From Clostridium sp. 12(A) (GTDB taxonomy: Bacteria; Bacillota; Clostridia; Lachnospirales; Lachnospiraceae), in the NCBI GenBank assembly GCA_000526575.1, contig JAGI01000002.1:2961501-3025500 (forward strand): a stretch of 64,000 nt of DNA. The letters are read 5' to 3'. Under the pieces are notes generated by a model, which was not told the origin of the DNA, ran no database searches, and saw only the letters and a program-made list of their open reading frames with translations. Position numbers and translations under genes: made by a program. Every line of letters begins with the position of its first letter. Within the stretch, counting starts at the first letter, position 1. Below, piece after piece: positions 10,717-32,828 of this stretch.

Positions 10717-11315
10717 ATCGAGTAGGAGGGGGTGCTCCCCCTCGTCTTCTCACCATCGTGCGTACCGTTCGGTACACGGCGGTTTAGTTGATAATAAGAT
10801 GCGCCATGCCTTGTATCACCTATCTGCACTAAGCGTTCTTACTGTCTATCTTCGATTTCCAATCTATTTTAAGTAAGTTACCTCTTTCGAGCAACTGCTA
10901 TCCTCGTGTTTCGAGTAAGTGACTTCTGTCTTATCTCAACTGTCGAGCCCTTTTCTTCATCTACTTTCATAGACTTCTTCGATACTACGACTCGAACTGA
11001 CTTCTGTACGTTCAATTTTGTCTTCCAATAAAGGCAACTAAGTAGCGAAACATTTATCGCTATGCATAGTTTACCGTACAGACCTACCCAGTTAAGGTGT
11101 GTAATCTTTCCCTCCACCTATCTGCCACATTTACACAGTATATCCTCGGATAGTTATTGGGCTTCAGTTTGTTTGGCAACCTTACCCGATATACCATGCC
11201 TTTTATGTGATTTCTCTTCGTCAGACCAGAGGTTTGCCAGCCGACTTCCTTCAGATTCCACCTCACGATGGACACCCTTGTCATTGGCTATGTGTTTCCA
11301 ACGATCAGGGCACAC
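10717..11315 (-). mobile_element. Group II intron without its reverse transcriptase ORF
   Basis: Read leftward, the element starts at 11315 with GTGTGCCC, matching the GUGYG 5' consensus, followed by a domain I segment of the type found in bacterial group II introns (GGGTGTCCATCGTGAGGTGG near 11285). The 3' end has a domain V hairpin around a GAAC loop (ACCGAACGGT near 10770) with CGTACGCACG-like arms, then a domain VI hairpin (GGGGGAGCACCCCC) and the terminal CTACTCGAT ending at 10717. The span of about 599 bases is the size of the ribozyme alone; no maturase or reverse transcriptase frame is present. It could only splice or move with help from an intact relative elsewhere. Confidence 0.8.
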
Positions 11316-24833: not shown

Positions 24834-26006
24834 TTACCTGCTGCCAGCAGGCATCTTTTTTCTAATTTGAGAAAGCCGGTCAAGAGCTTCCTTTAACGTA
24901 GCATCTTTTTTTGCAAAATGGAACCGGATTAAATGGTTCACTGGCTCCTTAAAAAAGCTGGATCCGGGAACAGCACCCACCCCCACTTCTCTGGCCAGAA
25001 CTTCGCAAAATTCAAGGTCGCTGTCATAATGAAACTCCCCGATGTCCATGAGCACATAATATGCTCCTTCCGGCACCGTATGAACCAGCCCAAGATCATC
25101 AAGCCCATTGAGGAACAGCTCCCTTTTCTTCGTGTACTTCAGACGCAGGCTTTCATAATAATCCGGTCCGAACTTTAACCCCGGAATCACAGCCTCCTGT
25201 AGTGGGGCTGCTGCTCCTACCGTAAGAAAATCATGAACCTTTCTCGCCACATCAATAATCTCAGGAGATGCAATGATATAACCCAGCCGCCAGCCTGTAA
25301 TGGAATACGTTTTAGACAGGGAGCTGCAGGAAATGGTCCGCTCCCACATGCCTGGAAGGGAGGCAATGTAAGTATGTCTGTGAGGCTCATAAACGATATG
25401 CTCATACACCTCATCTGCAATCACATAAACATCATATTTGATAGCCAGTTCTGCAATGAAGGTCAGTTCCTCCAAAGTAAATACCTTACCGCAGGGATTG
25501 GAAGGATTACAGAGAATCAGGGCCTTTGGCTGTTTTTGAAATGCAGCCTCCAGCTCATCCCGGTCAAAATGAAACAGGGGCGGACGAAGCGGTACATAAA
25601 TAGGCTCTGCTCCGGATAATAACGCATCTGCTCCATAATTTTCATAAAACGGAGAAAACACAATGACCTTATCTCCGGGGTTTGCCACGGTCATCATGGC
25701 AGCCATCATGGCCTCCGTGCTTCCGCAGGTAACTACGATTTCCTTATCCGGATCTATCTCATGTCCCATTGGCCCGGACTGTTTTTCAGCCAGTGCTTCC
25801 CTGAAATTCTGCGCTCCCCAGGTAATGGAATATTGATGAAAATCGCCTTCTGTTACTTCCTTTAAGCGATTAAGAATTTCTTTTGGCGGCTCAAAATCCG
25901 GAAATCCCTGGGATAAGTTGACCGCTCCGTATTGACTGGATATCCGGGTCATCCTTCGAATGACCGAATCCGTAAATCCTGCCGTCCGTTCAGACAGTTT
26001 CTGCAT
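24834..26006 (-). CDS. PLP-dependent class I/II aminotransferase
   Basis: The 390-residue protein has the fold type I set: NLSQGFPDFEPP near 35, the CGSTEAMMAAM cofactor loop near 92, CNPSNPCGKVFT near 165, DEVYEHIVYE near 195 and the PLP lysine in SSLSKTYSITGWRLGY near 230. It resembles the MalY/PatB-free kynurenine/methionine-type aminotransferases of subgroup I gamma, which often act on methionine, glutamine or aromatic 2-oxo acids. It overlaps the flavoprotein gene by 17 bases and ends the operon, so it could aminate the 2-oxo acid made by the dehydrogenases upstream. The true substrate is inferred. Confidence 0.9.
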   Translation of the reverse strand: MQKLSERTAGFTDSVIRRMTRISSQYGAVNLSQGFPDFEPPKEILNRLKEVTEGDFHQYSITWGAQNFREALAEKQSGPMGHEIDPDKEIVVTCGSTEAMMAAMMTVANPGDKVIVFSPFYENYGADALLSGAEPIYVPLRPPLFHFDRDELEAAFQKQPKALILCNPSNPCGKVFTLEELTFIAELAIKYDVYVIADEVYEHIVYEPHRHTYIASLPGMWERTISCSSLSKTYSITGWRLGYIIASPEIIDVARKVHDFLTVGAAAPLQEAVIPGLKFGPDYYESLRLKYTKKRELFLNGLDDLGLVHTVPEGAYYVLMDIGEFHYDSDLEFCEVLAREVGVGAVPGSSFFKEPVNHLIRFHFAKKDATLKEALDRLSQIRKKMPAGSR

Positions 26007-27396
26007 GTTCCTTGCCTCCTGTTATGTATGATTTCCCATAATTTAAAATGCCTTTGGGATCAAGGGCTTCTTTGATCCGGTTCATGACCTCCAGATTTTC
26101 ACTGGAAGTTCCGGAAAGAAAATAAGGACGCTTTGACAGCCCGATTCCATGCTCCCCAGAGGTAAGACCTCCAAGCTCAAAAGCCTTTTCATAGACCAGC
26201 TTCATATTTTCCTTAAGCTCCCTGTTCCACGTATCCTCATCCCGTTCTCCCCGGACCAGGCAAAGATGAATGTTCCCATCTCCGGCATGACCAAAGCAGA
26301 TCATCTGCATGTTTTTCTCCTGCTCCAACTGATTGACATAATCAATGAACTCACTGCTTTTATCAATTGGCACCACAATATCAACCGGTTCCTGTTGGGA
26401 TACCGCCTCCACTGCTTTTACAAGCGCTCCCCTTACCTTCCAGATTCCATCAGAAAGCTCCTTATCCCGTAGAACTATGTAATCCAAAGCTCCCTGTGCC
26501 ATTACAAGCTCTTTCGCCCTATTAGCAGAAGCCTCTACCTCTTCCTCTCTTCCATCAAAGGTAAGAAGGATATAAGAAGCGGCATCCGGCCTTGGATATT
26601 GGATTCCTAAGAATTCCTCCCCAAGAATTATGACCTTTCGTTCCACGAATTCCACTGCCGTAGGATTGACATTTGCCTTTAGAATGGATAGTACATTGCG
26701 AATTCCTAAGGAAAGACTTCCAAATGGAACCAGGACGCTTAGTGAGGTCTCCGGCTTTGGCAATAGCTTTAAGATGCATCTGGTTATAACCGCAAGGGTT
26801 CCTTCGGAGCCAATGATTAAGTTCTTTAAGGACAGTCCGCTGGCATCTTTAACATTCCTGCTCCCTACAGTGAGTACGGTGCCGTCAGCTAAAACCAGCT
26901 CCAGCCCTCTGACATAATCCCTGGTCACACCATATTTTACAGCCCTCATGCCTCCCGCATTGGTACTGATATTCCCCCCTAACGTGGATTCCTTTTCTCC
27001 CGGGTCAGGCGGATAAAAAAATCCTTCTCCTTCCACATAGGCCTGAAAATCCTTTAGAAACACTCCAGGCTCCACCTCAGCAGTAAGAGTATCCTTATCA
27101 AGGGATAGAATCCGGTTCATTCTGGATAGATCAAGAATAATACCACCTTCCATTGGTACCGTAGAACCTACCAGATTGGTGCCAGCGCCTCTTGGAGTCA
27201 CCGGTATTTCATGCTCCCACGCATACTTTAGAATCTGGCTGACTTCTTTTGTTGAGACAGGAAGGACAAGAGCATCCGCCCTGCCCTTTAAACGCCCCAG
27301 ACTGTCGCTTAAAAACCTGGGTTCCAATGGCTCAAATGCAATGCGTGATTCATCTGAAATGATATCAGATAGTTCATCTTTCTCTATGTCCTTCAC
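25990..27396 (-). CDS. FAD-linked 2-hydroxyacid dehydrogenase (GlcD/D-lactate dehydrogenase type)
   Basis: The 468-residue protein has the PCMH FAD-binding domain (PVTPRGAGTNLVGSTVPMEG near 68, GGNISTNAGGMRAVKYG near 140, GSEGTLAVIT near 195) and the FAD oxidase C-terminal domain with the metal-binding FGHAGDGNIHLCL near 368 and SGEHGIGLSKR near 415. The family oxidises D-2-hydroxy acids (glycolate, D-lactate and larger ones) to 2-oxo acids. With an L-specific dehydrogenase and an aminotransferase in the same operon, both stereoisomers of a 2-hydroxy acid could be used. No electron-transfer partner (EtfAB) gene lies beside it. Confidence 0.88.
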   Translation of the reverse strand: MKDIEKDELSDIISDESRIAFEPLEPRFLSDSLGRLKGRADALVLPVSTKEVSQILKYAWEHEIPVTPRGAGTNLVGSTVPMEGGIILDLSRMNRILSLDKDTLTAEVEPGVFLKDFQAYVEGEGFFYPPDPGEKESTLGGNISTNAGGMRAVKYGVTRDYVRGLELVLADGTVLTVGSRNVKDASGLSLKNLIIGSEGTLAVITRCILKLLPKPETSLSVLVPFGSLSLGIRNVLSILKANVNPTAVEFVERKVIILGEEFLGIQYPRPDAASYILLTFDGREEEVEASANRAKELVMAQGALDYIVLRDKELSDGIWKVRGALVKAVEAVSQQEPVDIVVPIDKSSEFIDYVNQLEQEKNMQMICFGHAGDGNIHLCLVRGERDEDTWNRELKENMKLVYEKAFELGGLTSGEHGIGLSKRPYFLSGTSSENLEVMNRIKEALDPKGILNYGKSYITGGKEHAETV

Positions 27397-27412: not shown

Positions 27413-28357
27413 TTATTTGTTTAATAAATCCTGATCCCAGCCAGCCTTAATGAAATAGCCGCCAAAGGTATCGTTAAATATTTTCTCTGTTTCCTCAGAC
27501 TGGAAGGTCTTAACGACTTTCTCATATACCGCTTTTTTCTCAGGATCAGAAAGATCTTCTGTACGGGCTGCAATCAGATTCCAGTAGTTTTCTTCCCCAA
27601 GGCTGGTATCCTTAAAGATAGCCTCATCCGTCTTTAAGCCGAAATCAAGGGCAAAGTTTCCATTGATAATTCCTGCTGTCACATCTGCTAACGTAGAAGG
27701 AATGGTATTGGCTGCAAGCTCCTGGATTTTTATTTTTACTGTATACTCTTCAATGTCATCCACCGTAGGACTAAAACCGGCATCTTTCTTAATCTTAATA
27801 AGCCCGGCAGATTCAAGCACCTTTAAGGCACGGCCGCCATTTGTCACATCATTTGGAATCGCTACGGTATCTCCATCCTTAATCTCAGATACTGATTTTA
27901 CCTTGCTGGAATAAAGGTTTAAGGGAATGATAAAGGTGTTTCCGATTGGCTCAATTTTATAGCCATTGCTCTCAATTTCATTCTGTAAGAAAATGCGGTG
28001 CTGGAATGCATTTAAGTCTATTTCACCATTTGCCAATGCATTATTAGGGGTTACATAATCGGAGAATTGTACAATGTCCAGATTGATTCCTTCCTTTTTC
28101 AGGGCCTCCTTAGTCGGAGCCCAAAGCTCTTCATAAATGCTACCAACAACTCCAAGCTTAACCGTTACAGGCTCTGCCTTTGTACCGGTTGTCTCAGCCT
28201 GTGAACTTCCCTGGGCAGTGGTCTCTGCCTCTTTGGTCTCTGCAGCGCTGGAATCCTTTGCTGCGGTGGTTTCCGCTTCTTTTGCCCCGCAGGCCGTCAA
28301 AGAAAGAGTCAGTGCTGCTGCAGATAACGTAAGTGTAATCCATTTTTTCAGTTTCAT
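27413..28357 (-). CDS. metQ: MetQ-type substrate-binding lipoprotein
   Basis: The start at 28357 (MKLKKWITLTLSAAALTL) follows GGAGG; the ATG at 28372 overlaps that site. A lipoprotein signal ends in LSLTACG, with Cys about residue 22. A low-complexity linker rich in Thr, Glu, Ala and Ser follows to about residue 65. The rest is the NlpA/MetQ domain (VKLGVVGSIYEELW, DYVTPNNALANGEIDLNAFQ, PNDVTNGGRALKVL). It is anchored outside the membrane and delivers ligand to MetNI. Family ligands are L- or D-methionine and relatives; the surrounding enzymes suggest a hydroxy or D form. Confidence 0.9.
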   Translation of the reverse strand: MKLKKWITLTLSAAALTLSLTACGAKEAETTAAKDSSAAETKEAETTAQGSSQAETTGTKAEPVTVKLGVVGSIYEELWAPTKEALKKEGINLDIVQFSDYVTPNNALANGEIDLNAFQHRIFLQNEIESNGYKIEPIGNTFIIPLNLYSSKVKSVSEIKDGDTVAIPNDVTNGGRALKVLESAGLIKIKKDAGFSPTVDDIEEYTVKIKIQELAANTIPSTLADVTAGIINGNFALDFGLKTDEAIFKDTSLGEENYWNLIAARTEDLSDPEKKAVYEKVVKTFQSEETEKIFNDTFGGYFIKAGWDQDLLNK

Positions 28358-28391
28358 AATAGTTTCCTCCATTGTTTTGTCATTGTTATTG

Positions 28392-29351
28392 TTATAAAGT
28401 CAGTGCCAACTCAAAATTTTCCTTCATGGTCTGACAGGACTTATGAAATTCTTCCAGTTCTTCTTCTGTTAAGTTCAGTTCAATCACCTCTGCCACTCCA
28501 TGGCGGTTTAACAGGGACGGAACGCTTGCATAAACACCAGTTTCTCCATACTGTCCCGTAAGCAGTGTGGACACGGGAAGAACCCTGTTTTCATCACCAA
28601 ATACCGCCCGGACCACCTCTGCTATGGCAGCCCCAATACCAAATTCCGTGGACCCTTTCCCTGCTAAAATGTGCCAGCCACCAGCCTTTCCTTCTGCTGC
28701 AATGGCTTTTAAATCCAGTGACCCGTAACGTTCTGGCTGTTCCTCCATGAGCTGGAACAGAGGCTTTCCTCCAATGGTCACCGCTGACCAAGCCGCCATC
28801 TGACTCTCCCCGTGCTCCCCAAGGGCATAAGCCAGTATGGATTTCTGATCCACTCCTACCGCCTCTGAAATCGCTCTCCTAAGCCTTGCGCTGTCCAGCG
28901 TGGTACTGGTGGAAAAGATTTTCTCTGCCGGATAATCAAGGACCCTCTGAATGTAGTGGGTCACCACATCCGCAGGATTTGAAATATTCAATATGATCCC
29001 GTGAAACCCTGAGGACCGTATGCCTTCCACTACATCTTTGATTATGGCTATGGTCTCCCGCAGAGTATCCATTCTTGTCTGTCCCTTACTCATATCAGGC
29101 AAGGGGCCTGCGGCTACAATAAACAAATCTCCGTCTGCTGCGTCTGTGTAATTACCAGCTCTGACCAAACATCGTTTTTGCAAGTAGACTGTGGAATCAA
29201 ACAAATCCATGGCCTGAGCCCTGGCCTTATTTTCATCCACATCTATGTACACGATTTCTTCACATAGCCCCTGAGAAATCAAGGCGTAGCCCGCATGAGA
29301 ACCAACATGACCGGCACCTGCGATGATGATTTTCCTTTTTTGAAGCTCCAT
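28392..29351 (-). CDS. L-2-hydroxyacid dehydrogenase of the LDH/MDH family
   Basis: The NAD loop is IIAGAGHVGSHAGYAL, the hinge ISNPADVVTHY, the Arg-bearing helix TTLDSARLRRAI and the catalytic His ALGEHGESQMAAW. At the substrate loop it reads AAGPLPDMSKGQTRMD: two residues longer than in lactate dehydrogenase and lacking the Gln that recognises the lactate methyl group. Loops like this occur in L-2-hydroxyisocaproate dehydrogenases, which take large side chains. The setting between metI and metQ points to a methionine-like side chain; this is inference. Length (319) is normal. Confidence 0.85.
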   Translation of the reverse strand: MELQKRKIIIAGAGHVGSHAGYALISQGLCEEIVYIDVDENKARAQAMDLFDSTVYLQKRCLVRAGNYTDAADGDLFIVAAGPLPDMSKGQTRMDTLRETIAIIKDVVEGIRSSGFHGIILNISNPADVVTHYIQRVLDYPAEKIFSTSTTLDSARLRRAISEAVGVDQKSILAYALGEHGESQMAAWSAVTIGGKPLFQLMEEQPERYGSLDLKAIAAEGKAGGWHILAGKGSTEFGIGAAIAEVVRAVFGDENRVLPVSTLLTGQYGETGVYASVPSLLNRHGVAEVIELNLTEEELEEFHKSCQTMKENFELALTL

Positions 29352-29374: not shown

Positions 29375-30055
29375 CTAATGGGTATTCTTTTTTACAACCC
29401 GGTTACCAATGATCTGAATAACACTTACCATGAGTACCAGGACCAAAACGGTCACATACGTCACGTCCGTCTGATTCCTGTCATGGCCATATCGTATGGC
29501 ATAATCTCCAAGACCCCCGGCTCCCACGACTCCCGCCATGGCTGTAAGACCAAGAAGGCTGATGGCTGTTATGGTAGTTCCTCTGGCGATTCCTGCAATG
29601 CTTTCCCTTAAATACACACTGAAAATGATTTCCATAGGACTTTTCCCCATGGAAAGGGCTGCTTCTATGAGCCCATGATCAATTTCTGCCAGTGCGCTTT
29701 CAATCTGTCTTGCAAAAAATGGTACCGTTCCAAACACTAAAGGAACGATAGCTCCCTCAACCCCAATAGCCGTCCCCATAATAAATCGGGAAACCGGCAT
29801 AACTCCAGTTAACAGGATGATAAATGGAATGGAACGGAAGAAATTAATCACCTTATCAAGTACCTGATGAATTCCTTTATGAGCCAGTATTCCACCTGGT
29901 CTTGTCACGGTAATGGTCACACCAAATACCATGCCTAAGACAAAGGAAATGGAGCCAGACCAGAGCGCCATAATAAGGGTATCTCCAATGGCCTGATAAA
30001 AGGTGGGAAGCTTTCCCATCACATTGGGTATGAAACTATGTAGTATATCCTGCAT
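29375..30055 (-). CDS. metI: MetI-type ABC permease
   Basis: The 226-residue membrane protein has five to six hydrophobic segments and the permease EAA loop (EAALSMGKSPMEIIFSVYLR near 130). It pairs with MetN and MetQ. Its first 20 bases overlap the end of metN, so the two are translationally coupled. Confidence 0.92.
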   Translation of the reverse strand: MQDILHSFIPNVMGKLPTFYQAIGDTLIMALWSGSISFVLGMVFGVTITVTRPGGILAHKGIHQVLDKVINFFRSIPFIILLTGVMPVSRFIMGTAIGVEGAIVPLVFGTVPFFARQIESALAEIDHGLIEAALSMGKSPMEIIFSVYLRESIAGIARGTTITAISLLGLTAMAGVVGAGGLGDYAIRYGHDRNQTDVTYVTVLVLVLMVSVIQIIGNRVVKKNTH

Positions 30056-31082
30056 CCTTAATCACCTCCACTCCTACATTTTTCTCAGCCAGATAATTCA
30101 TTGCCAAAGTAATCTGCTCCCGCTCTCCGCTCATAATAGCTACGGTTCCTCCAATGGGAGCATCCTGAACAATCTCTATATCGGAAAATATGATATTAAG
30201 GTCAATGTCAAAGGCTCTGGAAACCGTTGAAATTAAAGGCTCTGAAACATTCTTTTCTACATAAGAGAGACGGACGATCATCTCTCCCGGTTTTAATCTG
30301 GTCACGGGTGAGTCTTCCGCCAGAAGACCTTCGATCTTCTGAAGATTAGAGGTGGTACGGATAAAGTCCCTGGTAACCGGTTCCTTGGGATTGGCAAAAA
30401 TGGAAAATACCTCTCCCTCCTCCACAACCTTTCCTCTCTCCATAACTGCCACCCGTCCGCAGATTTCCTTAATGACAGCCATCTCATGGGTAATGACAAC
30501 AACGGTAATGCCCAGCTGCTTATTTACCTTTTTTAAGAGCTGTAGAATCGCTTTCGTCGTCTGAGGATCCAATGCACTTGTGGCCTCGTCACACAAAAGA
30601 ACCTTAGGGTCATTGGCCAATGCCCTTGCAATGGCTACCCTTTGCTTTTGTCCGCCGGAAAGCTGGTTTGGATAAGCATTTTCCTTATCCTCGATATCAA
30701 CAAGACGCAAAAGCTCCCGAACCTTCTTCTCTTTTTCCTCTCGGCTGAGACTGCTTCCCTTAAGAGGAAACGCCACATTTCCAAACACCGTTCTGGATGG
30801 CATTAAGTTAAAATGCTGAAAAATCATTCCGATTCCTTTTCTGGCAGTACGAAGCTCTTTGGCAGACAGAGCGGTAAGCTCCTTGGAATCCACGGTTACC
30901 TTGCCCCTTGTGGGCACCTCTAATAAATTAATGCACCGTACCAGAGTGGATTTTCCAGCTCCTGAAAAACCGATGATTCCAAATATTTCTCCTTTATCAA
31001 TGGATAAAGATACATCTGAAATCGCATGGACCTGCCCCTCTCCGGTTCCAAAGACCTTAGAGATATTCTCAAGTTCAATCAT
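30036..31082 (-). CDS. metN: MetN-type ABC ATPase with NIL domain
   Basis: Walker [16 protein letters not shown] near 37, Q-loop IFQHFNL near 88, signature [16 protein letters not shown] near 140 and Walker [14 protein letters not shown] near 163 are all intact. From about residue 260 a NIL domain follows ([27 protein letters not shown]), which binds methionine and inhibits transport when cell methionine is high. It is the first structural gene after the Met/Cys-rich leader peptide and hairpin, with GGGAGG as ribosome site. Confidence 0.94.
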
Positions 31083-31102: not shown

Positions 31103-31134
31103 AAAAAAACAGGCTCCCTAAGGCTCCCGTTTTT
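31103..31134 (-). terminator. Attenuator terminator before metN
   Basis: On the minus strand AAAAACGGGAGCC pairs with GGGAGCCTGTTTTT through AAAAAC/GTTTTT, one G-U, GG/CC, a tandem G-A pair and CC/GG, closing on a 4-base loop and followed by seven T. It lies between the leader ORF and metN. The 5' arm and loop can instead pair with the last codons of the leader ORF, as expected for an attenuator. Confidence 0.75.
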
Positions 31135-31170
31135 GGTAAGTGGTAAAAAGATGCTATGAGTATGCATTCC

Positions 31171-31290
31171 TTACTTGCCTGGATGGGAGTACAAAAAATA
31201 GAGATGAGCGCAGCACATCAGAGACATGGCCATAGTCATGTTTCCTGCTCTTTGGGATATACAACACGCTGCATGCATCATTCTATTCAT
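31171..31290 (-). CDS. Met/Cys-rich leader peptide of the metNI operon
   Basis: A 39-codon frame starts at an ATG at 31290, 5 bases after GGGAG, and ends at TAA 31171-31173. It holds 7 Met (codons 1, 4, 5, 18, 20, 22, 25) and 4 Cys (9, 10, 26, 27), with the run MTMAMSLMCC at 18-27. Chance enrichment to this degree in 39 codons is unlikely. It lies between a consensus promoter and a terminator-like hairpin ahead of metN. Codons 34-38 carry CTCCCATCCAGGC, which can pair with GCCTTAGGGAG of the hairpin (5 plus 4 pairs around a small loop). Stalling at Met or Cys codons would free this segment and open the operon; finishing translation would cover it. The peptide itself probably has no function. 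Confidence 0.75.
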   Translation of the reverse strand: MNRMMHAACCISQRAGNMTMAMSLMCCAHLYFLYSHPGK

Positions 31291-31333
31291 AGGGTCTCCC
31301 GTCTATACTTATTAACATACTGGTTTTGTTGGT

Positions 31334-31362
31334 ATAATAGCACCATGCCACTTTCTTGTCAA
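31334..31362 (-). promoter_or_regulatory. Promoter of the leader-metNI operon
   Basis: TTGACA (31357-31362) and TATTAT (31334-31339) on the minus strand are spaced exactly 17 bases. Transcription would start near 31327, giving a leader of about 245 bases before metN. Confidence 0.85.
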
Positions 31363-31410: not shown

Positions 31411-31450
31411 AAACGCGCAGGACACAGGTAATCCTGTGATCTGCACGTTT
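31411..31450 (-). terminator. Terminator after cheX
   Basis: Outer arms AAACGCGCAG/CTGCACGTTT (one mismatch) enclose an inner perfect hairpin ACAGG-TAAT-CCTGT. It lies 63 bases after cheX and also separates it from the metN promoter. Between it and cheX are three head-to-tail copies of GTTTAAT. Confidence 0.8.
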
Positions 31451-31512: not shown

Positions 31513-31974
31513 TTATCCATTAATTGCAATATTTGCCTCAAATGGAATGCCATTCGCAGAGAGTTTTACGCAAAGCACCTGATTGGAGCTCATCTTTATA
31601 GATACGTTAGTTCCGTAAAGCAGGGTTGGCGTGGAGATATCTACAGTAATTCCAATCTCTGAAAAGAAGGTTGCAGCATTGGCGGTCAGCATGTTGGCAA
31701 GCTCTGAAACAGCACTTTGTGCCATCTCATCAAACTCCTCCACCGGCATTCCCATCATCATGGTAGAAGCAATTTTTTTTGCATCCTCTAAGCCAAGGCA
31801 ATACACAACATTTCCTTTGACCTCTCCCACAATACCAACGGTCATAATTACGCCTGTACTGATTAAGTTGTCATCCTTTAAGCTGATGCCTTCTTTTTTT
31901 ATATCATCAAATCCAAGCTGAGGCATCACGGAAAAGAATGCCTGGATAAAAGGATTCATGTATTTTACATCCAA
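31513..31974 (-). CDS. cheX: CheX-type CheY-P phosphatase domain protein
   Basis: The 153-residue single-domain protein has the CheX/CheC active-site pattern SAVSELANMLTANA near 87-100, with Glu and Asn three residues apart, and the typical beta strands after it. CheX removes phosphate from CheY-P in chemotaxis. Its start overlaps the end of the receiver-CheX gene by 10 bases, so the two are coupled and probably act together. No other chemotaxis genes are near. Confidence 0.8.
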   Translation of the reverse strand: MDVKYMNPFIQAFFSVMPQLGFDDIKKEGISLKDDNLISTGVIMTVGIVGEVKGNVVYCLGLEDAKKIASTMMMGMPVEEFDEMAQSAVSELANMLTANAATFFSEIGITVDISTPTLLYGTNVSIKMSSNQVLCVKLSANGIPFEANIAING

Positions 31975-32828
31975 TGATCGTCACCCCTTTGAAATCCGAC
32001 GTTAAGGAGAATTTCTCCATATTCTGATTCACCAATTACAGAAGTTGTATAGAAACCAGGTGCTGTGATGCAGACACTTTCTCCATGCATGATGGTAGGA
32101 GGAGCAACACGCAGACCAAAGGCCTTATTCATACGGTTGATTACGGAGCATGCATTTCCTGAAATGATATTGGCAAGCTCGCCAATCACTGCTATCACTT
32201 CTTCGTTTGTATTGTTTTCTTTTTTCATGATTGCTGCTGTCAGCTGACTGGCAGTCTTCATGCTTAAATCAATAAGCATTCTTCCGGAGAACTTTCCGAT
32301 GATACCGATAATGATGGTAAGGCCCTTGGACTCGAATTCCTTTTCACAGGGATATTCCGTCTGATATGTAATCAGGGATTTAGCCATCTTATTAATTCCA
32401 TCTAAAAGGGATTCCTTAAAGATTTCCATATTTTTATCAGACAACTCCTCATACAGCTCATCCGATTCCATTACACGGCTGATTGCTGTCATTAGGCTGT
32501 CCTCGTCAATTGGCTTCTGAACATAAGCCGATACCTTGTTGTCCTTAGCTGCCTTCACGATTTCATCATCCATCATGGAGCTTACAACGATTACCTTAAT
32601 ATCTTTGTTAATCTCATGGATTGCCCTCGTACACTCCAGCCCGTCCGTTCCCGGCAATGTCATATCCATGGTTACAAGCTGGGGCATCTTATCTTTTACC
32701 ACTTCCTTAACTGCATCCAGTGTGCCGGCTTCTCCGACCACCTCAAGTCCGTGTCTTTCAAGAATTCCCCTGATGTAAGCAATTGAAAATGGGGAATCAT
32801 CCACTATAACTACTTTTGTACCTTCCAT
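31965..32828 (-). CDS. Receiver domain fused to CheX-like domain
   Basis: Residues 1-125 form a CheY-type receiver: VVIVDDSPFS with the acidic pair, the phosphorylated Asp in LVTMDMTLPGTDG near 55, VVSSM and the Lys in YVQKPID near 107. Residues 140-287 are a CheX-like domain with VIGELANIISGNA near 215, again the E-x-x-N pattern. A receiver joined to a phosphatase-like domain could be a self-regulating signal sink or a two-input switch. It comes first in the two-gene operon. Confidence 0.82.
   Translation of the reverse strand: MEGTKVVIVDDSPFSIAYIRGILERHGLEVVGEAGTLDAVKEVVKDKMPQLVTMDMTLPGTDGLECTRAIHEINKDIKVIVVSSMMDDEIVKAAKDNKVSAYVQKPIDEDSLMTAISRVMESDELYEELSDKNMEIFKESLLDGINKMAKSLITYQTEYPCEKEFESKGLTIIIGIIGKFSGRMLIDLSMKTASQLTAAIMKKENNTNEEVIAVIGELANIISGNACSVINRMNKAFGLRVAPPTIMHGESVCITAPGFYTTSVIGESEYGEILLNVGFQRGDDHWM

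Follow-up and report, generated by a model that had tools for sequence, protein, structure and literature searches.

The classical leader-peptide attenuators are those of the trp, his, thr, leu and ilv operons of E. coli and Salmonella, and S-boxes and T-boxes are the usual devices of methionine control in Clostridia. While leader-peptide attenuation as such is thus classical, the accessible parts of two reports also supply precedents for Met leaders: the metL leader with the peptide MSTTSDRTPATEATTTPGARCMCRRMCAF precedes metNIQ in Streptomyces lividans TK24 (PMC8079986), and the Met leader ORFs MetL and CJsORF19 (MMYQMR) of Campylobacter jejuni have support from ribosome profiling (PMC11955535). 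According to the portions available of further sources, the ilv-leu operon of Staphylococcus aureus carries a Leu/Ile leader attenuator for which leader and terminator mutants are described (PMC5794164), leaders with Cys runs accompany cys operons in Mycobacterium (PMC1262725), and His leaders are predicted in bacilli (PMC2965389).

The locus described here lies in a window of 64,000 nucleotides, the whole stretch of DNA that was analysed, from Clostridium sp. 12(A). We read the leader upstream of its metN gene as a classical ribosome-mediated transcription attenuator responding to the supply of Met and probably also of Cys, a reading to which we assign a probability of about 0.86. A promoter, a 39-codon ORF with 7 Met and 4 Cys, a terminator and metN had been predicted to follow one another at this site, and we located all of them as claimed on the minus strand. 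Comparisons within the genus were based on 25 genomes, 8 of which hold a window-type metN at an identity of at least 83%; the seven orthologs analysed together are L011 and L013–L018, with L012, which belongs to the same species as the window, left out. The features of the locus are:

31334..31362, minus strand: sigma-70-type promoter TTGACA-17-TATTAT with extended TG, 11 of 12 consensus matches
31296..31300, minus strand: GGGAG, Shine-Dalgarno sequence of the leader ORF and complement of CTCCC; unaltered in five of seven orthologs, the exceptions being L017 and L018
31171..31290, minus strand: Met/Cys-rich leader ORF of 39 aa, proposed leader peptide; ATG at 31290, stop at 31171
31210..31239, minus strand: proposed control codons ATG ACT ATG GCC ATG TCT CTG ATG TGC TGC (MTMAMSLMCC); AM[SL]xMCC kept in 7 of 7 orthologs with synonymous changes
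31185..31189, minus strand: CTCCC, proposed 5′ strand of the antiterminator (region 2); invariant in DNA sequence although read in three frames, and paired by RNAalifold without the terminator 3′ arm
31173..31179, minus strand: proposed inner antiterminator pairs GG (31179–31178) and AAGT (31176–31173), from RNAalifold and folding of the window genome's leader
31103..31132, minus strand: intrinsic terminator AAACGGG...CCTGTTT with T-run; its 5′ arm GGGAG (31128–31124) would double as antiterminator partner
30036..31082, minus strand: metN, methionine ABC transporter ATPase and proposed regulated gene; best match NCBIfam TIGR02314, 418 bits, under the cut-off of 499.7
29375..30055, minus strand: metI, permease; best match NF008049, 193.5 bits, under the cut-off of 212
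28392..29351, minus strand: L-2-hydroxyacid (lactate-type) dehydrogenase; TIGR01771 above cut-off
27413..28372, minus strand: metQ, substrate-binding lipoprotein; best match NF008285, under cut-off
25990..27396, minus strand: GlcD-like FAD hydroxyacid dehydrogenase, last gene of the operon; best match TIGR00387, under cut-off, with Pfam FAD_binding_4 and FAD-oxidase_C

Promoter, Shine-Dalgarno sequence, leader ORF, T-tailed hairpin and metN succeed one another within about 280 bases of the minus strand. The promoter (TTGACA at 31362–31357, a 17-nt spacer and TATTAT ending at 31334, preceded by TG) ranks best among 24 promoter-like sites found between positions 27000 and 35000, a number of sites that is not above that in shuffled sequence (21.3 ± 5.0); TTGACA together with TATTAT or TATCAT can also be read from the alignment in orthologs L013–L018. 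The leader ORF, translated as MNRMMHAACCISQRAGNMTMAMSLMCCAHLYFLYSHPGK with 7 Met (start included) and 4 Cys, is rank 1 of 985 window ORFs of 15–70 aa by Met+Cys excess. Behind it, the terminator hairpin AAACGGGAGCCTTAGGGAGCCTGTTT spans 31132–31107 with −10.3 kcal/mol and its T-run reaches 31103; a consensus terminator scan did not list the hairpin at 31132–31107. A separate, very stable terminator hairpin (−24.5 kcal/mol) lies on the minus strand at 31411–31450, roughly 50 bases upstream of the promoter of metN, and comes after cheX- and cheY-like genes (31513–32828).

Where a metNIQ operon had been predicted, metN, metI and metQ are present, in the order metN-metI-LDH-like-metQ-GlcD-like rather than as a plain metNIQ operon. 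The best match of metQ among solved structures is the D-methionine-binding MetQ 4yah, and the substrate loop of the LDH-like enzyme is 2 residues longer than that of 3wsv in the alignment. The full five-gene set also occurs in L132, L135, L137, L138, L145 and L052. With both dehydrogenases, the operon may serve the uptake and oxidation of D/L 2-hydroxy-4-methylthiobutyrate or of other hydroxy acids. Elsewhere in the window, the minus strand at 11097–11272 matches the group II intron domain RF02001 with 148 bits.

We searched the leader for known RNA elements. No Rfam family matches it at gathering score, and at E values up to 10 there are four sub-threshold matches, all upstream of the ORF, the best of them being a plus-strand match to rliH (19.2 of 100 bits). 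Neither the T-box model RF00230 (stem I, antiterminator) nor the S-box (SAM-I) model RF00162 matches the window leader; the T-box model finds 14 matches elsewhere in the window genome, 12 of them over cut-off. Taken as a whole, the leader does not fold in an exceptional way (z −1.16). The Rfam searches bear on the possibility that the leader is a translation-independent RNA element, such as an unrecognised riboswitch or tRNA-binding leader, in which Met/Cys coding has arisen by chance. S- and T-boxes do precede the orthologous metN genes of relatives, and the folding model of translation coupling given below is equivocal, both of which would suit such an element. Against it stand the Rfam searches, the Shine-Dalgarno sequence preceding the leader ORF, a codon-type substitution pattern and the finding that many genera have Met/Cys ORFs of differing sequence at the corresponding position, and we regard it as very improbable.

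A leader ORF with AM[SL]xMCC is present in all 8 genus genomes that hold the window-type metN ortholog, its core reading MTMAMSLMCC, MTMAMLFMCC, MAMAMSFMCC, MDMAMSMMCC or MSTAMSLMCC. Over a 12-codon core, the synonymous proportion of substitutions exceeds the nonsynonymous one in 20 of the 21 pairs formed by the 7 distinct orthologs, the sole exception being the near-identical pair L011–L013. Values for eight core pairs are 0.36–0.94 synonymous and 0.10–0.23 nonsynonymous; they derive from few synonymous sites, about 5–7 per pair in the pairs with printed counts. CTCCCA, 19–21 nt for its CTCCC past the MCC codons by hand count on the alignment, is identical DNA in 7/7 orthologs, yet it is read in three frames (Y-S-H, L-P and A-P). 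From this three-frame reading of an invariant hexamer, together with the synonymous excess in the core, we conclude by sequence comparison that the first part of the leader is constrained as codons and the following CTCCCA as RNA. A T-tailed hairpin follows the leader ORF in each of the seven orthologs, with the leader stop 45–53 nt before the terminator 5′ arm (7/7) and a distance between stop and CTCCC of 7 to 36 nt. L014 and L015 have about 120–130 extra bases between the leader terminator and the metN start.

Sequence-specific arrest peptides such as TnaC stall the ribosome on binding a small molecule, and a nascent AM[SL]xMCC could likewise bind Met, SAM or cysteine in the exit tunnel, in which case the codons would not be the sensor. 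The constancy of A-M-x-x-M-C-C in 7/7 window-type orthologs is more than composition alone requires and fits an arrest peptide. No such conservation extends across genera: the window genome's second leader and those of other genera share the Met/Cys content, with no common motif or register by eye, and the frame of the distal part of the peptide varies freely. We therefore hold arrest by the peptide itself to be unlikely and retain codon-dependent attenuation as our reading.

The second leader belongs to the window genome's other metNIQ operon, whose metN (metN2) is 47–49% identical to the window metN. The leader of this operon (L037), MNHSEAMQMNMDRMNDMCMMMCCMSECVKNR, has a different Met/Cys sequence that is unrelated to the window leader, and is accompanied by a terminator of −21.7 kcal/mol. 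A leader is present in all 17 genus metN2 loci scanned. We extended the scan to a family sample of 299 genomes, calling a leader Met/Cys-rich at p<1e-3. A metN2 ortholog (E 1e-130 or better) occurs in 29 of them, one per genus and with the window's included, and a Met/Cys leader precedes it in 21 of these 29; the controls gave 153/2900 shuffles and 0/29 on the reverse strand. T-tailed hairpins follow the ORF in 20 of the 21 metN2 leaders compared with 14 of 420 shuffled segments.

The second family could also be analysed for substitution and covariation. Of 78 genus pairs, 60 show a higher synonymous than nonsynonymous proportion; among the 51 pairs that differ by five or more changes, 44 do so (L040 and L023, of other length, excluded). 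Across 15 alignable leaders (L180 and L183 left out as not alignable), (i) both sides of the terminator have changed at 5 of 12 pairs, with a covariation score unmatched by 500 shuffles, (ii) a protector helix of 14 pairs over the first Met codons is paired in 94.1% of cells and holds one pair that changes from C-G to U-A in 5 sequences, with a covariation score reached by 4/500 shuffles and at least one pair changed on both sides in 222/500 shuffles, and (iii) an antiterminator UUGUGAU:GUCGCAR is 98.1% paired (slid controls 27–46%) and varies too little to covary. Covarying pairs, which the original prediction expected in both alternative hairpins, were thus found in the terminator of the second family and at one pair of the protector helix, and none in the antiterminator. 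The modelled 1:2 pairing without ribosome has P 1.00 in 11/12 leaders; the 2:3 pairing is uneven and reaches 0.01–0.03 in L037, the window genome's own copy. L037 and other second-family loci also contain an imperfect palindrome ATTCCTAC-N6-TATAGGAAT directly after the promoter, partly kept in relatives. It is a candidate repressor operator, so that double control may be possible; the repressor might be a cysteine regulator such as CymR.

Window-type metN orthologs (E 1e-120 or better) are rarer, occurring in 12 of the 299 family genomes, the window's included. Six of these 12 genomes carry a Met/Cys leader, with controls of 14/1200 shuffles and 0 on the reverse strand; the 6 genus orthologs in the leader scan gave 6 forward calls and 1 reverse. 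The short ORF with shifting sequence and kept Met/Cys codons that had been predicted for relatives is thus found at 8/8 genus loci, 6/12 metN and 21/29 metN2 loci of the family and in L037. The original prediction had named relatives keeping the operon without the ORF as contrary evidence, and 6 of the 12 family genomes are of this kind: L048 has a T-box, which fits a swap of devices, and in L042, L043, L044, L047 and L051 we found neither leader nor T-box. The leader of L049, a member of this family, is the same as that of L055, Lachnoclostridium phytofermentans, so the sampled family is probably Lachnospiraceae.

An order-wide sample of window-type metN yielded a leader in 1 of 21 newly fetched loci (L232). 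In the order-wide Rfam run of 20 loci (L231 left out, L222–L230 likewise outside the run), a T-box lies next to metN in 13 and an S-box in 2; with L048, these 13 are consistent with device swapping. All 13 T-boxes fall within family f17, for which 14 loci were searched, and the fourteenth is L232, whose leader MKNNNTFCMMNMCMCMMPCSKD... stands at metN while the 13 other searched f17 loci all have the T-box. The L232 leader looks like an independent replacement. T-boxes also precede metN in Dielma (L054) and Candidatus Copromonas (L060), and an S-box does so in Clostridium sp. BSD9I1 (L061). None of the leader-bearing loci scanned with Rfam contains a T-box or S-box.

Outside the family, metN2 seldom carries one of these devices. 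A class-wide sample for metN2 (53 non-self matches) gave a leader-like ORF in 3 of 29 fetched loci (L207, L212, L217) and, outside the family, a T-box in 1 of 20 loci searched. More distant metN loci (L059–L131) gave leaders in 3/73 forward and 6/73 reverse scans, which is background, and the third-type metN loci of the genus (L019–L022, L036) have no leader in 5/5. Met/Cys leaders were likewise absent upstream of the window genome's six cysK-family matches; a simple-repeat ORF at the cysK-family locus L168 was considered as a leader and discarded. Isolated Met/Cys-dense leaders occur outside the family sample in L106, an uncultured Clostridia (MMMMAMHMCRMCM...), and in L217 (MRMSVYMLMMSMMMSMLMCMYMC...). 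At L041 and L181 a Met/Cys ORF is present and no T-tailed hairpin was found, so that another mode of termination or translation control is possible there; L041 has a GC-rich hairpin GAGGCGGGGAGC...GCTCTCCGCCTC without T-run upstream of metN. Internal Met and Cys occur in 32/32 tallied leaders, Met making up 23.0% and Cys 10.8% of 1002 residues. Because Met+Cys was the criterion for choosing these leaders (21 by p<1e-3 and 11 hand-picked that also pass), the high sum is a result of selection, but the criterion did not demand Cys in every one of them.

Met, Cys and His are soft-metal ligands, and the ORF might for this reason encode a functional Met/Cys/His-rich micropeptide, for example one that binds metal, which the terminator merely separates from metN. 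The C-terminus and frame are variable, three leaders scanned against Pfam gave no match, and a T-box or S-box occupies the same place in relatives, all of which argues against a peptide with a function of its own; we give this explanation scarcely any credence. All leader loci were fetched via MetN. Copies elsewhere were sought with one peptide in the window genome and none were found, the second leader peptide as query returning only its self-match.

We next consider how codon-dependent stalling could be coupled to termination. The terminator 5′ arm, GGGAG or GGGGG, faces CTCCC in 7/7 orthologs, and RNAalifold without the terminator 3′ arm returns CTCCC:GGGAG plus GG:CC. The inner partners in the window are GG with CC (31136–31135) and AAGT with ACTT (31141–31138). 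CTCCC:GGGAG is conserved and nearly invariant, with zero compensatory changes among the 7 orthologs. The pairing CTCCCATCCAGGC:GCCTTAGGGAG originally proposed, which uses a second GGGAG (31118–31114), is possible in the window; this second GGGAG is lost in L017 and L018, and the first one, in the terminator 5′ arm, is the better conserved partner of CTCCC.

A downstream-only folding model considers RNA past the ribosome up to the terminator loop, with a mask ending 15 nt after the first A-site codon base. Here, P(CTCCC:GGGAG) is 0.68–1.00 in 7/7 orthologs with the ribosome on MCC and, by construction, 0.00 with the ribosome at the stop. Without a ribosome, P is 0.00–0.05 in five orthologs, 0.42 in L016 and 0.48 in L018. 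In the ribosome-free fold of the window genome's leader, CTCCC pairs with the leader's own Shine-Dalgarno GGGAG, which can thereby sequester it. When RNA upstream of the ribosome is left free to pair, the best stalled values are 0.96, 0.99, 0.00, 0.00, 0.42, 0.00 and 0.96 (L011, L013–L018), i.e., the antiterminator is clear in 3/7, at 0.42 in one and at 0.00 in three, which presumably reflects competition from the Shine-Dalgarno side and other bases upstream. The modelling therefore backs the switch only with the RNA upstream of the ribosome ignored. For the full transcript of the window genome, equilibrium favours the terminator when the ribosome is at Met18–Cys27 (P 0.95–0.99) and the antiterminator when it is at Met4, Met5 or Cys9 (0.85–0.92), so that a switch at the core codons must be kinetic. 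The stop codons of L017 and L018 are 36 and 33 nt past CTCCC, respectively, too far for a ribosome at the stop to cover it, and the covering step needs another explanation in these two.

Shuffled leaders served as controls for the energetic part of the argument. Sequestration of the terminator 5′ arm was scored for 15 leaders, with three stall sites per leader and 100 shuffles for each site. It beats the shuffles in 0/7 window-type leaders (lowest 10 of 100 shuffles), whose GC-rich 5′ arm, when free, pairs as often in shuffled leaders. Among 8 second-family leaders, L024, L023, L034, L040 and L037 stand at 1 to 8 of 100 at one or more of the sites and the others show no excess; placing the ribosome at the stop gives values just as high. 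Duplex energy between the leader-distal region and the 5′ arm was scored for 15 leaders (L052 dropped, as its start motif was not found). The CTCCC duplex of the window genome is not rare, with 179/300 shuffles as low, and L016, L017 and L018 fall at about 10 to 17% of shuffles. Rare duplexes were found in L046 (9 bp, 3/300 shuffles) and L050 (7+5 bp, 2/300), whose antiterminator sequences differ from the window type. The structural case rests on conservation and not on energy, and it is weakened a little by the upstream-RNA model and by the stop positions in L017 and L018.

The proposal that this is a Met/Cys leader attenuator has gained support from conservation of the ORF, codon-type substitutions, the terminators and the leader of the second operon. 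From the parts and their conservation, including that of CTCCCA, and from the codon-type evolution, we infer the following course of stalling, termination and readthrough and the amino acids that would be sensed. The transcript would start near 31327, and a ribosome would begin the 39-codon leader. With ample charged Met- and Cys-tRNA, it would reach the stop at 31171 and cover CTCCC, 11 nt upstream, leaving the terminator 5′ arm GGGAG to pair with the 3′ arm, and transcription would end at about 31103. If charged Met- or Cys-tRNA runs low, stalling of the ribosome on MTMAMSLMCC would leave CTCCC, 20 nt past the last Cys codon, uncovered at the time when the terminator 5′ arm is transcribed. 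The CTCCC:GGGAG duplex, enclosing GG:CC and AAGT:ACTT, would then form first and allow readthrough into metN-metI-LDH-metQ-GlcD. Without a ribosome, CTCCC would pair with the leader's own Shine-Dalgarno GGGAG, as in the window-genome fold, making termination the default. The Met/Cys ORF very probably acts in this way as a starvation gauge for the transporter genes.

Met control in the window genome seems to draw on three kinds of RNA device. An S-box stands before metK, two methionyl-tRNA synthetase genes are preceded by T-boxes (2 of the genome's 14 T-box matches), and both metNIQ operons found apparently have translated Met/Cys leaders. The S-box has exactly one match per genome in 25/25 genus genomes. 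The constant pairing of Met with Cys, seen also in the Streptomyces metL peptide, raises the question of whether the operon answers to either amino acid. As a tentative proposal, which we rate at somewhat below even odds, T-box/S-box control of metNIQ gave way at least twice in Lachnospiraceae to unrelated leaders in which Met and Cys codons are counted jointly, and a lack of either amino acid opens the operon; the window operon, with its L-type and FAD-type 2-hydroxyacid dehydrogenases, may target the uptake and oxidation of methionine hydroxy analogues.

A translated sulfur amino acid leader had been expected to be little described. For Clostridia we found no precedent: among the listed titles and abstract openings of open-licence PubMed Central papers, none names a Met/Cys leader before metNIQ, be it in Clostridia at large or in Lachnospiraceae. 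The expectation does not hold in general, given the metL leaders of S. lividans and C. jejuni in the accessible parts of those reports (PMC8079986, PMC11955535). The S. lividans leader shares the target metNIQ and a peptide mixing Met and Cys. It differs in its leaderless transcript and in that no typical terminator was found, as far as the available text states; methionines and threonines are named there, and the peptide has no likeness in sequence to the window leader by eye (PMC8079986). CJsORF19 is likewise a Met leader before a gene for a D-methionine transport substrate-binding protein, whereas the C. jejuni leaders belong to another phylum, CJsORF19 has six residues and the mechanism is merely suggested in the part of the report available (PMC11955535). 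The S. aureus ilv-leu attenuator, on the available text, has in common leader-peptide attenuation in a Firmicute and differs in amino acids and operon (PMC5794164). The leader ORFs of Mycobacterium likewise contain codons for a sulfur amino acid; they are described, in the portion available, with Cys only, with cys operons and with no conserved terminator (PMC1262725).

Compared with the classical attenuators, the window locus has the same arrangement of promoter, short control-codon ORF, terminator helix, proposed protector and antiterminator helices competing with it, and a downstream operon for amino acid use or uptake. It differs in that the control codons are Met plus Cys, the host belongs to Clostridia, the target is a transporter with two hydroxyacid dehydrogenases, and the role of protector strand would fall to the Shine-Dalgarno sequence of the leader itself (exact GGGAG in 5/7). 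The T-box and S-box leaders of metN share gene and place with it (L048, L054, L060, L061, L187 and 15/20 order-wide loci) and differ in sensing tRNA or SAM without translation. Because orthologous metN genes carry a T-box, an S-box or a leader at the same place, device swapping is directly testable. What is new relative to the known systems is that a leader of Met/Cys specificity occurs in this clade, how widely it is spread, the presence of two unrelated copies in one genome and the swap with T-boxes and S-boxes at orthologous genes.
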